Shown piece after piece: positions 19,362-23,290 of a stretch of 64,000 nucleotides of DNA. Within the stretch, counting starts at the first letter, position 1. The number at the start of each line of letters is the position of its first letter. This stretch comes from Amphritea japonica ATCC BAA-1530 (lineage in GTDB: Bacteria; Pseudomonadota; Gammaproteobacteria; Pseudomonadales; Balneatricaceae), in contig NZ_AP014545.1 of assembly GCF_016592435.1 (NCBI RefSeq), positions 3,356,693 through 3,420,692 of the forward strand, in the 5' to 3' direction. A model generated the notes under the pieces. The model was not told the DNA's origin and ran no database searches. It saw only the letters and a program-made list of their open reading frames with translations. The position numbers and the translations under genes are program-made.

Positions 19362-20135
19362 ATGTCAAACATCGGTCACGAAGAAGTGCTCAGCGTACAT
19401 CACTGGAACGATAGCCTGTTCAGCTTTACCACAAGCCGCGATCCGGGGTTCCGTTTCAAGAATGGACACTTTACACTGATCGGCCTGGAGCACGAAGGTC
19501 GTCCATTGATGCGTGCCTACAGCATCGCCAGTGCTAACCATGAAGATCAGCTGGAATTTTTCAGCATCAAGGTACAGGACGGTCCGCTGACCTCAAAACT
19601 CCAAAACATCCAGGTGGGCGATCAGATTCTGATTAGCCGTAAGCCGACAGGCACGCTGATCAACGATAACCTGCTCCCCGGCAAGCATCTCTACTTAATC
19701 AGCACCGGTACAGGTTTAGCTCCGTTTATGAGCATTATTAAAGACCCGGAGATTTATGAGCAATACGACAAAGTCATCCTGACTCACGGGGTTCGCCAAT
19801 TATCAGAACTGGCCTATGCCGATGTAATTCAGGATCATCTCCCCGATAACGAATATCTTGGCGATATGATCAGCGATAAACTGATCTACTATCCAACCGT
19901 CACCCGGGAACCTTTTCGCAATCAGGGCCGACTAACCGATCTGATCACCTCCGGAAAACTGACCGGTGATCTGGGGCTTCCGGCGCTGAGCACTGAGAAC
20001 GACCGATTTATGATCTGCGGTAGCCCCAGCATGCTGAAAGACACCACCCGGATTTTGGACGAAATGGGCTTTAGTGAAGCACGACGGGGGGATTTAGGGC
20101 ACTACGTTATCGAGAGAGCATTCGTAGAACGCTGA
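19362..20135 (+). CDS. fpr: Ferredoxin--NADP reductase
   Basis: FAD enzyme moving electrons between NADPH and ferredoxin or flavodoxin; supports iron-sulfur enzymes and oxidative-stress defence. 257 residues, the length of bacterial class-I Fpr. FAD-binding RAYSIASANHEDQLEFFSIK (about 50-69), NADP-binding ISTGTGLAPFMSIIKDP (about 115-131), VILTHGVRQLSELAY, and MICGSPSMLKD near the C-terminus, ending VERAFVER-like with no aromatic cap. GAGG ribosome site. Divergent from the FinR-like gene. Confidence 0.96.
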   Translation: MSNIGHEEVLSVHHWNDSLFSFTTSRDPGFRFKNGHFTLIGLEHEGRPLMRAYSIASANHEDQLEFFSIKVQDGPLTSKLQNIQVGDQILISRKPTGTLINDNLLPGKHLYLISTGTGLAPFMSIIKDPEIYEQYDKVILTHGVRQLSELAYADVIQDHLPDNEYLGDMISDKLIYYPTVTREPFRNQGRLTDLITSGKLTGDLGLPALSTENDRFMICGSPSMLKDTTRILDEMGFSEARRGDLGHYVIERAFVER

Positions 20136-20171
20136 TAAGCCCTTTTTTTTAATGATATTTCACTAATCGCA

Positions 20172-20199
20172 TTGACCGCTCGAAAACGAGACGTATAAT
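20172..20199 (+). promoter_or_regulatory. Consensus sigma-70 promoter of tRNA-Leu
   Basis: TTGACC, 16-bp spacer, TATAAT, placed 16 bp before the mature 5' end of the tRNA. A near-perfect strong promoter. Confidence 0.85.
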
Positions 20200-20214
20200 A
20201 CGCTCCACGTTTGT

Positions 20215-20301
20215 GCCAGTGTGATGGAATTGGTAGACATAGGGGATTCAAAATCCCCCGCCCTTAAAAGCGTGCCGGTTCGAGTCCGGCCACTGGTACC
20301 A
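20215..20301 (+). tRNA. tRNA-Leu (anticodon CAA)
   Basis: 87 nt with encoded 3' CCA. The acceptor arms GCCAGTG and CACTGGT pair, with a G-U at the first position. The D-loop GGAATTGGTAGACA is leucine-type; the anticodon stem GGGGA/TCCCC encloses TTCAAAA, giving CAA. The long variable arm GCCCTTAAAAGCGT marks a class II tRNA, and the T arm is GCCGG-TTCGAGT-CCGGC. It decodes UUG and is the intact parent of the degenerate repeats that follow. Confidence 0.97.
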
Positions 20302-20318
20302 TGAACGTTTTAGAGAAA

Positions 20319-20345
20319 GCCTCGCTATTATAGTGGGGCTTTTTT
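20319..20345 (+). terminator. Terminator of tRNA-Leu
   Basis: GCCTCGC and GTGGGGC pair (two G-U) around a 7-nt loop, followed by six T. Confidence 0.8.
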
Positions 20346-20372
20346 GTGCCTGAAATTTGGGTAAGTAAATCA

Positions 20373-20460
20373 GACATAGGGGATTCACTTTCCAGAAAGT
20401 CTTTGCCCGCCCTTAAAAGCGTGCCGGTTCAAGATCCTGATTCAGGGGCCACTGGTACCA
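20373..20460 (+). repeat. Degenerate tRNA-Leu repeat, unit 1
   Basis: Starts at the tRNA position GACATAGGGGATTCA, then replaces the anticodon 3' stem with an insert containing a CTTT...AAAG hairpin. It keeps the variable arm GCCCTTAAAAGCGTGCCGG unchanged, expands the T arm with an insert (CCTG-ATT-CAGG), and ends CACTGGTACCA exactly like the tRNA. The 5' acceptor half and D arm are missing, so it cannot fold as a tRNA. Confidence 0.85.
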
Positions 20461-20476
20461 TGAACGTAATTCGATC

Positions 20477-20504
20477 AAGCCTTGCTTCTTAGCAGGGCTT
20501 TTTT
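20477..20504 (+). terminator. Terminator of repeat unit 1
   Basis: AAGCCTTGC and GCAGGGCTT form a 9-bp stem (one G-U) around TTCTTA, followed by T. The same hairpin recurs after unit 2. Confidence 0.8.
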
Positions 20505-20527
20505 GTACCTGACGTTTGGGTAGGAAA

Positions 20528-20615
20528 CACATAGGGGATTCACTTTCAAAAAGATCTCAGCCCGCCCTTAAAAGCGTGCCGGTTCAAGATCCTGAATCAG
20601 CGGCCACTGGTACCA
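20528..20615 (+). repeat. Degenerate tRNA-Leu repeat, unit 2
   Basis: Same length (88 bp) and layout as unit 1, starting 155 bp further on. It differs mainly inside the anticodon-side insert, while the flanking ATAGGGGATTCACTTTC, the variable arm and the CACTGGTACCA end are kept. The T-arm insert is CTGAATCAG, still able to pair. Confidence 0.85.
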
Positions 20616-20631
20616 TAAACGTAAACCAATC

Positions 20632-20659
20632 AAGCCTTGCTTCTTAGCAGGGCTTTTTT
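20632..20659 (+). terminator. Terminator of repeat unit 2
   Basis: Same AAGCCTTGC/GCAGGGCTT hairpin and T run as after unit 1. Confidence 0.8.
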
Positions 20660-20681
20660 GTGTCTGACGTTTGAGTAAAAA

Positions 20682-20702
20682 GATATAAGGGATTCACTTT
20701 CT
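20682..20702 (+). repeat. Truncated third copy of the tRNA-Leu-derived repeat
   Basis: ATAAGGGATTCACTTTCT matches the start of units 1 and 2 at the expected 154-bp period, then diverges. The array therefore decays here. The remaining bases to the next gene at 20867 show no further feature. Confidence 0.65.
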
Positions 20703-20866
20703 ATAAGCGTTTCTTCTCATACTTGTTTTCATCCTCGTATTGAGACATTGAAAGACTGCTCGAGTGTAATTTTTTGTATTAATACTTTATCAGGCATTCC
20801 ATAATGAACTTTCAGTGTGCTACATGCTGCGTTGTCACACTAACTTTACACTGAAGTGGTTACGAT

Positions 20867-22087
20867 ATGTCTGAGCATTTGACGGGTCAGAAAGCATCAA
20901 ATAAATTGCTTAAACTATTATTAAAGACCTCTCTCATTTCGTCAGCATTAATCATAATTGTTGCGGGTTACGCTGTATCCCTTCTCTACAGCCAGCATGT
21001 TTTAGAGGATGCTGAGCATGATGCTATCAGCGTTGGTGAAGCTATCGTTTCACTTGAAAGACATCTTCTCATCACTCCTGATGATCAGCATATAGAGCAC
21101 CTGAATGTTACATCAGATGGATTTAACAAACTTGATGAAATGATGCAAAAGGCAATGGCTCCTTTTGAAATCATTAAAATCAAGGTCTTTTCTGATGATG
21201 GCACAATTGTATACAGTACTGATCATTCGATTATTGGTGAGAATGACCTCCAGAATCCTCGATTGAAGATAGCGTTATCAGGAGGTGTTAGCTCCAATCG
21301 ACAGAATAAAGATGAGATCACAGACCTTCGCGGTGAGAAAAAATTTAATGTTAATGTCGTAGAAACCTATATTCCGATCGTTAATAACAAGGGATCTATT
21401 ATTGGCAGTTTTGAAGTCTACAAAGATGTAAGTTTTAGTAATCTAAAGAGCCAGGACGGTATAGCAAAGTCACTCATCACGTTAACGTTGGTTCTTGTTA
21501 TTGTTTTCAGCCTAAGCTTTCTAATCATTAGAGTAGCGGCAAAAGAGTTAAATCTGGCACAAGTTAAACTTCACAAGATGGCGACTGAAGACCCATTAAC
21601 CGGGCTAAAAAACAGGCCGGTTATTATAGAATCGGTTCAGGAAGAAATTTCACGCAACCAAAGGCGGCAATCAAGTAAGACTACTTATACTTTTAGCCTG
21701 GTTATGATTGACGTTGATCATTTCAAATCTATAAATGATCAATACGGACACCCTGTCGGTGATCAAGCTCTCAAAAAGATTGCTCATACTATAAATTCAA
21801 CCATTAGGGCGCATGACTTCATTGGCCGTTATGGCGGCGAAGAGTTTCTGTTATTACTCCCTGATACCGACTTAAACGGCGCAAAACCTATAGCGGAAAG
21901 AGTGCGCAAGAGCGTTGAGAGTATAAGTTTTCTGAGTGGAGGCAAAAGGATTCCACTCACTATCAGCCTGGGGGTTACCACTGTCTTTGCTGACGACTCT
22001 GACTATGATCAGGCAATTAAGGATGCTGACAGAGCCCTTTATCAGGCAAAAGATGCAGGACGAAACCAGGTTTCTGTTGCATCATAA
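20867..22087 (+). CDS. Membrane diguanylate cyclase (GGDEF)
   Basis: 406 residues. Membrane segment at about 20-43, a periplasmic sensing region (about 44-200), a second membrane segment (about 203-223), then GGDEF (about 240-405). It has DPLTGLKNR, MIDVDHFKSINDQYGHPVGD, the active-site RYGGEEF at about 323-329, and a C-terminal ADRALYQAKDAGRN. The GGEEF variant is active in most relatives, so it should make cyclic di-GMP. No RxxD inhibitory site is obvious. Codon use is more AT-rich than its neighbours. Confidence 0.95.
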   Translation: MSEHLTGQKASNKLLKLLLKTSLISSALIIIVAGYAVSLLYSQHVLEDAEHDAISVGEAIVSLERHLLITPDDQHIEHLNVTSDGFNKLDEMMQKAMAPFEIIKIKVFSDDGTIVYSTDHSIIGENDLQNPRLKIALSGGVSSNRQNKDEITDLRGEKKFNVNVVETYIPIVNNKGSIIGSFEVYKDVSFSNLKSQDGIAKSLITLTLVLVIVFSLSFLIIRVAAKELNLAQVKLHKMATEDPLTGLKNRPVIIESVQEEISRNQRRQSSKTTYTFSLVMIDVDHFKSINDQYGHPVGDQALKKIAHTINSTIRAHDFIGRYGGEEFLLLLPDTDLNGAKPIAERVRKSVESISFLSGGKRIPLTISLGVTTVFADDSDYDQAIKDADRALYQAKDAGRNQVSVAS

Positions 22088-22163: not shown

Positions 22164-22913
22164 TCAGGCCGGCAGCGGCAGCTCTCCATCCACTGCGAAT
22201 TGTGACAGCGGGTAATGATAGGTTCGGGGGGAAGCAACGGCTTTGAAGGTCACTCCGGTTGTTGTCAGTTCACAGAGCCACTGTGCGGTTGTATCAGGCT
22301 GATTATGTGTAAACGCGGTTGCCGTATAGAGTGCTGCGCATACCCCCGATTCAGTTGACCGGGCAGAAAGATACTGGAACGCTTCCACACCCGCTTTACG
22401 CATTTCTGTTCCAAGCGCTTGTGACGAAGCATAATCCTGCGGATGAGTTAGCTGATCTGCATAGGTATTAAATGGGGAGTGCTGAAGCAGTATGCCCCGT
22501 TGTGTACTGTAGGTAACCGTAAACAAGGTGTGCTCTGTGTTGAGCCGTTTACCGGGTGGTTCACCCTCCATTGCCAGCAAGAAGACAAACCGATAATAAG
22601 CAGACTCTGCCAGTGTACTTTCCAGTAATTCCCCTCCGTAGAACAGACTGGGCTCGTATTTGCTCCCAAAGCGCGACCCCCATTCCAGTGGCGGGTAGCG
22701 AAAAGGCGTGCTCAGCAGATAATGAAGCCCTGCTGTAATTTCTTCCGGATAGTCGGGTTTTGAGGCTTCCAGCAACTTTTCCAGTATCGCCTGTTCTTCG
22801 AGTGTATCAACATAACCTGTCGTCGCCACTTGCTCCTGACTCTCAACCAGTCGGTATAAAGTACCCGCTATGGGTTTGATCTGCTCTACACCGTCACAGG
22901 CCTGCCAGATCAT
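22164..22913 (-). CDS. RES-domain toxin (NAD+-degrading)
   Basis: 249 residues. Family motifs: TLYRLVESQ near residues 18-26 (Arg), WGSRFGSKYEPSLFYGG (about 78-94) and TLAESAYYR (Glu/Ser, about 98-106), the Arg-Glu-Ser set that names the family. Known RES toxins deplete NAD+. It overlaps the stop of the upstream Xre/ParS-type gene by one base, forming a RES-Xre toxin-antitoxin pair on the minus strand. Confidence 0.9.
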   Translation of the reverse strand: MIWQACDGVEQIKPIAGTLYRLVESQEQVATTGYVDTLEEQAILEKLLEASKPDYPEEITAGLHYLLSTPFRYPPLEWGSRFGSKYEPSLFYGGELLESTLAESAYYRFVFLLAMEGEPPGKRLNTEHTLFTVTYSTQRGILLQHSPFNTYADQLTHPQDYASSQALGTEMRKAGVEAFQYLSARSTESGVCAALYTATAFTHNQPDTTAQWLCELTTTGVTFKAVASPRTYHYPLSQFAVDGELPLPA

Positions 22914-23290
22914 TACACCTTGCCCCGGATAGCATCCAGATAAGTGACAACACGCATCAAACCCTGAACACTCTGCATCTGTTCCGCAGGAATGCCGCCA
23001 GTCAGTTTATTGTTTGAACGCATAAAGTGCTTGATCCAGTCATGATTACCACCGGACAATGCAAAGAGAGCCCGTGCAGCGCGAATCAATAGCAATGCCA
23101 GTTCACCCCGCTTGGATGCAGGATCCAGTAAACCGCTCTGTTTAAGACGTGATACCCCGGTGCGATTAATACCAACGACTCTGCCTAGCTCTTGCTGGTT
23201 CAGTGTCAGTTGCTCAGACGCGTTGAACATCGCCTTACAAAGCACGGCAGCCGCATCAGGTCGTTGCTTCAGTTGTGCAGACATAGACAC
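22913..23290 (-). CDS. Xre/MbcA/ParS-type antitoxin of the RES toxin
   Basis: 125 residues. Helix-turn-helix in the first half (LTLNQQELGRVVGINRTGVSRL, seen as about residues 33-54) and a C-terminal toxin-binding part (LLIRAARALFALSGGNHDWIKHF ... GGIPAEQMQSVQGLMRVVTYLDAIRG). It is immediately upstream of the RES toxin with a one-base overlap, the standard antitoxin-first order, and probably represses its own promoter. Confidence 0.9.
   Translation of the reverse strand: MSMSAQLKQRPDAAAVLCKAMFNASEQLTLNQQELGRVVGINRTGVSRLKQSGLLDPASKRGELALLLIRAARALFALSGGNHDWIKHFMRSNNKLTGGIPAEQMQSVQGLMRVVTYLDAIRGKV

Follow-up and report, generated by a model that had tools for sequence, protein, structure and literature searches.

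Tandem tRNA-tail repeats behind tRNA-Leu(CAA) in Amphritea japonica resemble the rtT repeats of Escherichia coli

Results

The window, a stretch of 64,000 nucleotides from Amphritea japonica ATCC BAA-1530 (NZ_AP014545.1, positions 3,356,693 to 3,420,692), comes from a genome of 3.83 Mb in a single contig. The ferredoxin reductase encoded in it agrees with this genus: its five best matches all bear the name Amphritea (92-96%), and so do 10 of the best 13 (89-96%), the remaining three being named Oceanospirillales bacterium, Neptuniibacter and Motiliproteus. The window contains one intact tRNA-Leu(CAA) gene with its own promoter-like site and terminator, followed by altered copies of its tail:

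20172..20199, + strand: promoter-like site of tRNA-Leu(CAA), TTGACC - 16 - TATAAT (promoter scan)
20215..20301, + strand: intact tRNA-Leu(CAA), parent of the array (ARAGORN; Rfam tRNA model, 51.5 bits with permissive filters)
20313..20345, + strand: terminator hairpin and T tract of tRNA-Leu(CAA) itself (folding z -4.33)
20346..20371, + strand: spacer before unit 1; it begins with GTGCCTGA, a motif found after many terminators of the genome
20372..20460, + strand: unit 1, a copy of tRNA-Leu that runs from the D loop to CCA and has two inserts, one in the anticodon loop after C34 (from 20387) and one in the T loop
20477..20504, + strand: terminator of unit 1 with T tract (hairpin 20477-20500; hairpin scan and folding)
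20505..20526, + strand: spacer GTACCTGACGTTTGGGTAGGAA
20527..20615, + strand: unit 2, with the anatomy of unit 1; the 149-nt repeat blocks of the two units are 90% identical
20632..20659, + strand: terminator of unit 2 with T tract (hairpin 20632-20655, identical to that of unit 1; hairpin scan and folding)
20660..20707, + strand: spacer and start of a third unit, ending inside the anticodon insert (after TATAAG)

The two direct repeats of 149 nt (20374-20522 and 20529-20677) are spaced by 155 nt and followed by the start of a third (20679-20707). Together with the ARAGORN prediction they bear out a sequence-only reading of the locus, which had described an intact tRNA-Leu(CAA), two full units and a truncated third at a period of about 155 bp. 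The 3′-ends of the two full units lie 159 and 314 nt past the 3′-end of the tRNA. Each Leu module consists of a spacer starting with GTRCCTGA, the tRNA sequence from the D loop to CCA with its two inserts, a short trailer and a terminator. The last 14 nt of the units are identical to those of tRNA-Leu(CAA) (GGCCACTGGTACCA), and the last 18 nt differ from it by 3-4 mismatches. The units had been described as keeping the variable arm, acceptor and CCA end of the tRNA, which is correct, and as lacking its 5′ half, which is not: only the first ~20 nt are missing, and the 5′ strand of the anticodon stem (AGACATAGGGGATTC) is retained. tRNA-Leu(CAA) is the sole tRNA that ARAGORN predicts in the window, and both ARAGORN and cmscan with the tRNA model (RF00005) detected the parent gene and none of the Leu units.

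As had also been proposed, each full unit ends in the same terminator, units 1 and 2 sharing an identical 24-nt hairpin; that of tRNA-Leu(CAA) itself is related to these, yet different. The terminators of the tRNA, unit 1 and unit 2 are all more stable than shuffled sequences (z -4.33, -4.65 and -3.93). A promoter scan of 20100-20900 returned one site, that of tRNA-Leu(CAA), against a mean of 1.3 in shuffled sequences, and found no internal promoter for the Leu units. The motif GTGYCTG often stands directly after terminators of this genome (e.g., at 20346, 20505 and 20660 of the window), and likewise follows a terminator in G023 (L029), in a stretch without an ARAGORN tRNA. The pattern GGSYTTTTTTGTRYCTG, with at most one mismatch, has 54 matches in the window's genome (G000) and none in the reversed control. 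Further downstream in the window (22164-23290) are two adjacent minus-strand ORFs, which we take to resemble a RES-type toxin and an Xre/DUF2384-like antitoxin.

Copies of tRNA 3′-ends were then sought genome-wide, using the last 18 nt of the last tRNA of each transcription unit and allowing up to 4 mismatches within 800 nt downstream, outside other tRNAs. The 71 tRNAs located in the window's genome form 31 such units, and 10 of these are followed by cognate copies: Leu-CAA, two Phe, Tyr, Val-GAC, Ser-GGA, Lys, two fMet and one tRNA with a CAT anticodon, presumably Ile2 on its sequence features. The controls gave 0/892 for non-cognate and 0/31 for reversed ends. Amphritea genome G010 likewise has cognate copies after 10/31 units (9/31 without Thr, whose row is weak; control 4/896), and G022, from another genus of the same family, after 0/35 (control 1/1148). 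The sets differ, with Val counted only in the window's genome and Gln and Pro only in G010, where the 800-nt limit excludes a tRNA (C1:2906656) that has RtT matches 1.4 kb downstream. Repeated tRNA tails behind tRNA-Leu(CAA) are a real feature of this lineage, beyond chance, and the Leu array is one of about ten in its genome, each copying the 3′-end of its own tRNA.

The E. coli tyrT operon contains tandem repeats that end in the 3′ sequence of the tRNA and are the source of the small rtT RNA, for which we know of no settled purpose. The likeness to these repeats had been pointed out from the sequence alone, and it is right in kind. In E. coli K-12, tyrTV has three units with a period of 178 nt and 3′-ends matching at 18/18 nt, beside the annotated rttR. 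In the window's genome, the Rfam RtT model (RF00391), to whose family E. coli rttR belongs, exceeds its cut-off of 45 bits at the Lys array (66.1) and at one of three Tyr units (53.2; the others reach 44.7 and 39.3), while the Val array stays below it at 42.6. Across 57 genomes, including this one, the model has matches in 26 at E 0.001 and in 22 above the cut-off; those of G010 lie at Ser, at Lys and between two tRNAs before Thr. Another four RtT matches in a row (C1:1308226-1308769) are found in G010 ~11 kb from the nearest listed tRNA (1297161). With permissive filters, RtT matched nothing in the stretch of the Leu units (20150-20800) at E values up to 10. We rely on this permissive scan for the verdict on RtT membership, because a default-filter Rfam scan of the whole window at gathering, in which no RtT appeared, missed tRNA-Leu itself too. 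The Leu array has the RtT trait of units behind a tRNA operon, each with that tRNA's 3′-end, but a structured core in the T loop is not seen in its units: their T-loop insert is short, and their bodies fold no better than shuffled sequences (z 0.00 and 0.06).

The arrays of the window's genome divide by the position of their inserts. Six arrays at tRNAs with G34 or U34 (two Phe, Tyr, Val, Ser and Lys) have a long T-loop insert in at least one unit, as judged by eye. The four at tRNAs with C34 (Leu, two fMet and Ile2-like) instead have a short insert directly after C34, which reads GGATTC-RCTTTCY in Leu, GGGCTC-RRCTCTTT in fMet and GACTC-ARCTCTYT in Ile2-like units (in RNA, the inserts are RCUUUCY, RRCUCUUU and ARCUCUYU, respectively). 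Judged by sequence, the Leu units are best assigned to a second unit type, apart from RtT, that comprises Leu(CAA), fMet(CAU) and Ile2-like (CAU) units. Being separate and unmatched by RtT, this type agrees with the idea of a further family of repeats derived from tRNA. That the family evolved independently, as had been suggested, is less well supported: in A. balenae, G009 and G010, the Leu arrays have a longer T-loop insert too (by eye). Nor is the division absolute, since G032 has, on another contig than its tRNA-Leu(CAA), a T-loop-type unit bearing the 3′-end of that tRNA, with no tRNA in the stretch examined (L211). An fMet unit of G002 that keeps part of the D arm resembles a tRNA with an enlarged anticodon loop. 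In the Ile2-like array of G008 (L233), nine motif-bearing copies, chosen by motif, were aligned. For other C34 tRNAs, a loose form of the motif gave 10 matches outside the known arrays of the window's genome, similar to the 7 of the reversed control.

Leu units were found in A. balenae, A. pacifica, A. atlantica DSM 18887, Amphritea sp. 1_MG-2023, several MAGs and G024, which belongs to another family of the same order. Outside Amphritea, the Leu type was found only in G024, and the fMet type in no genome searched. The Leu insert pattern occurs only in the window's genome and G024 among 293 genomes of the order, and the fMet insert in 3/369 genomes of the class, these being the window's own and two with chance matches away from any tRNA; neither sample includes a second genome of the window's genus, and diverged forms escape exact patterns. 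Ten of the 80 loci examined have an intact tRNA-Leu(CAA), and six of these ten have units in the stretch examined; among the other four, G009 has a unit 13.5 kb away and two loci cover less than 3 kb. Relatives had been named as the place to look for the units, and several Amphritea do carry them, but their presence is patchy and the hairpin pairing is not conserved. The last unit is truncated in relatives as in the window. In L037, a single module of 165 bp separates the tRNA from the native downstream sequence, fitting exactly between the two. The same module is absent from A. opalescens L041, where the tRNA directly joins the native downstream sequence, as it does, with a difference, in L043. 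The alignment of L037 with L041 shows a clean gain or loss of a module, with its boundary at the 3′-end of the tRNA.

To measure conservation, 22 Leu units were listed, with identical units and units containing N collapsed or excluded. Three incomplete ones (the third of the window, one from G006 and one from A. balenae) were set aside, leaving 19; divergence was measured on these minus three G024 units, and structure on the 14 that remained after removal of one G012 unit and the A. pacifica unit, both of which lack the T insert, and of the three from G024. The mean difference over species pairs was 0.20 for the anticodon insert, 0.29 for the 5′ spacer, 0.33 for the T insert and 0.40 for the trailer. 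Fourfold sites of the neighbouring ferredoxin reductase gene differed by 0.39-0.65 when the window was compared with eight relatives; for all 36 pairs the range was 0.19-0.65. Between the window and the six relatives with both measures, the insert differed by 0.21-0.32 and the 5′ spacer by 0.19-0.32, so that conservation of the insert does not exceed that of the spacer here. Copies within one genome differed at the insert by 0.16, against 0.20 between species, which makes exchange between species possible.

An array examined for variation among its copies follows an initiator tRNA of G010 (L268, C1:469900-472300) and has 14 consecutive fMet units, picked by their terminator and spacer, independently of the motif. 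All 14 have CTCGGCTCTTTATWA. Only 1/15 motif columns vary, compared with 79/124 elsewhere (p 2e-5); without the truncated last unit the counts are 0/15 and 59/124 (p 1.6e-4), and for the insert-only columns 0/8 versus 59/131 (p 0.02), with 13/34 variable in the tRNA 3′ part, although columns within an array are not independent of each other, and this array may be of recent origin. An fMet-unit-like stretch with the insert motif also lies at C1:773339-773383, far from the two fMet arrays of that genome.

No convincing fold common to the inserts emerged. They had been proposed to pair as CTTT/AAAG and CCTG/CAGG, which does not hold up: the outermost pairs are present in 2/14 and 1/14 of the aligned Leu units. 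Covariation in the two inserts, the check suggested for this pairing, was no better than in shuffled alignments of the 14 units (203/500 reach the score). Two alternative helices fared no better (122/500). Stems around the insert scored near shuffled flanks, with a mean rank of 0.41 over 36 fMet rows, including L251, a chance match at a locus without a tRNA, and likewise for 23 Leu and 12 Ile2 rows. RNAalifold suggested an anticodon stem GGGAUU/GAUCUY with a 12-nt loop for the 14 units, but this is too weak to claim, because 3/15 pairs show a double change, in one sequence each, and the energies are near those of shuffled sequences.

These measurements bear most directly on the possibility that the arrays are passive, i.e., decaying duplications of a tRNA and its terminator, without selection on the units, in which tail and terminator stay alike only through recombination with the real tRNA. 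Such decay would account for the patchy presence and variable copy number, the truncated last units, the want of a conserved fold and a 5′ spacer that equals the insert in conservation when relatives are compared with the window, and the greater likeness of the tRNA-derived parts is what gene conversion predicts. It accounts less readily for the anticodon insert, for which the tRNA offers no template, but which varies less than fourfold sites and is nearly invariant in the 14-unit array, nor does it explain why a similar insert recurs at the same place in three different tRNAs. We regard passive arrays as a serious possibility, though a rather doubtful one.

Alternatively, the arrays might matter only as a series of back-up terminators that insulate downstream genes from strong tRNA promoters. 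A strong terminator does follow each full Leu unit of the window, and the terminator stems differ between arrays by paired changes (by eye), e.g., UGCU/AGCA versus CGUU/AACG. On the other hand, no T tract was seen by eye between the units of the Ile2-like arrays of the window's genome (L136) and of G008 (L233), both with a period of ~91, or between those of E. coli tyrTV. Some Leu units of G012 fold weakly (-8 kcal/mol), and the conserved insert is left unexplained. Termination as the sole role seems quite improbable to us.

A last source to consider is integration. tRNA-Leu(CAA) serves as an integration site in the genus and the order, and separate tRNA 3′ halves are found in L112, L119, L122 and L127. 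In G009 (L118), an island of ~13.3 kb, whose ORFs by eye include type I restriction, one integrase-like and two resolvase-like genes, is joined at TCCGGCCACTGGTACCA of the true tRNA-Leu(CAA); the array and older downstream sequence, common to G010, lie past its right junction. In G006 (L112, C43:73000-92000), five array units come after tRNA-Leu(CAA), another unit stands 5 kb further along, and a tRNA 3′ half lies 15.6 kb downstream of the tRNA. With its array between the tRNA and a 3′ half, this locus could have received the array with an island, which lends weight to an origin from integrated elements and takes some from passive arrays, although no integrase was recognised by eye among the 22 ORFs of this stretch, nor among the window's 21 ORFs of 90 aa or more between 14000 and 28000. 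In A. opalescens G011, a 5′ half of tRNA-Leu(CAA) (nt 1-40; L121 1288-1327) is located ~110 bp upstream of the intact tRNA and a 3′ half 35 kb downstream; these halves are traces of integration at the anticodon. The earlier suggestion that the repeats were left by integrating elements is unsupported by G009, where the island lies upstream of the older array, and finds some support in the island-like surroundings of the G006 array. That the Leu units are attachment-site remnants, i.e., copies of the tail that islands or phages entering tRNA-Leu(CAA) left behind or brought along, is highly improbable, given that the crossover seen in the 3′ halves lies at the anticodon and the units match the tRNA to either side of it, not on one side only as an attR would, that the G009 junction is in the true tRNA, that a unit fragment in G015 sits just past a tRNA 3′ half, that the 20 of 39 phage matches listed cover query positions 1-104 at most (the tRNA and a few bases), and that ten tRNA units have arrays. 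For the arrays as a whole, an origin as island remnants is unlikely.

Discussion

The array behind tRNA-Leu(CAA) looks like an expanded and altered cousin of the E. coli rtT repeats, a view we take because about one third of the genome's tRNA gene groups carry such tails. The reading we prefer, which we would put about evenly between right and wrong, is that these are recombining tRNA-tail repeats of the rtT kind, transcribed by read-through and with a possibly functional insert. The tail-plus-terminator block would act as a direct repeat, at which unequal recombination or slippage could add, remove and homogenise modules while the tRNA stays intact. The Leu units, in which no promoter was found, may owe their transcription to polymerases that occasionally read through from the promoter of the tRNA, as with rttR in E. 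coli, and tRNA 3′ processing combined with termination at the next terminator would release short RNAs that carry a tRNA tail. The conserved anticodon-loop insert would be the part most likely to act as RNA, possibly through pairing of its pyrimidine-rich stretch. The recombination step is better grounded than the other three, which are proposed by analogy with E. coli rttR and with the Northern signals described for Actinobacillus RtT in the available portion of that report (PMC4986893).

A bolder form of the recombining-repeat reading, speculative and somewhat unlikely, is that the Amphritea arrays at C34 tRNAs (Leu-CAA, fMet-CAU and Ile2-like CAU), with their pyrimidine-rich insert after C34, constitute a second class of tRNA-tail RNA distinct from RtT. 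Present in up to 14 copies and expressed by terminator-limited read-through from the promoter of the tRNA, they might give tRNA-tailed regulatory or decoy RNAs with an enlarged anticodon loop, whose production would be coupled to transcription of the tRNA.

With arrays at about one third of tRNA units in the two genomes scanned, turnover between species and two unit types, Amphritea offers a natural series for studying the origin, transcription and function of such repeats. They also show that copies of tRNA 3′-ends near tRNA genes are not always footprints of integrated elements.

Several known systems invite comparison. The tRNA-Pro/tRNA-His cluster of Photobacterium phosphoreum combines tandem tRNA repeats with pseudo-tRNAs. 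Among the literature matches listed, by title and start of abstract, none deals with these arrays or with RtT in Amphritea. Small RNAs rrA, rrB and rrF arise between the double terminators of E. coli rRNA operons (PMC8144298); unlike the Leu units, they are not described as tRNA-derived or tandem in the part of that paper available. The interspersed repeats of Enterobacteria include rtT-like elements, according to the accessible text of a survey (PMC2965389). In Pasteurellaceae, the RtT RNAs Arrc20 and Arrc21 adjoin Asn and Lys tRNA genes and gave Northern signals in Actinobacillus; unlike the Leu array, they are reported upstream of the tRNA genes, and the available portion of the report makes no mention of tandem arrays or anticodon-loop inserts for them (PMC4986893). 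A covarying tandem GA motif has been described in RtT, in the section of the source at hand (PMC7657543), which gives the T-loop type, in other work, a structural backing not found here for the anticodon-loop type. The closest parallel is E. coli tyrTV/rttR, where, as in the Leu array, tandem units stand behind a tRNA operon and each bears the 3′-end of that tRNA. The two differ in that RtT-type units have a long T-loop insert, whereas the Leu units have a short anticodon-loop and a short T-loop insert, and in that the tyrTV units follow one another with no T tract between them (by eye), whereas each full unit of the Leu array is closed by a terminator.
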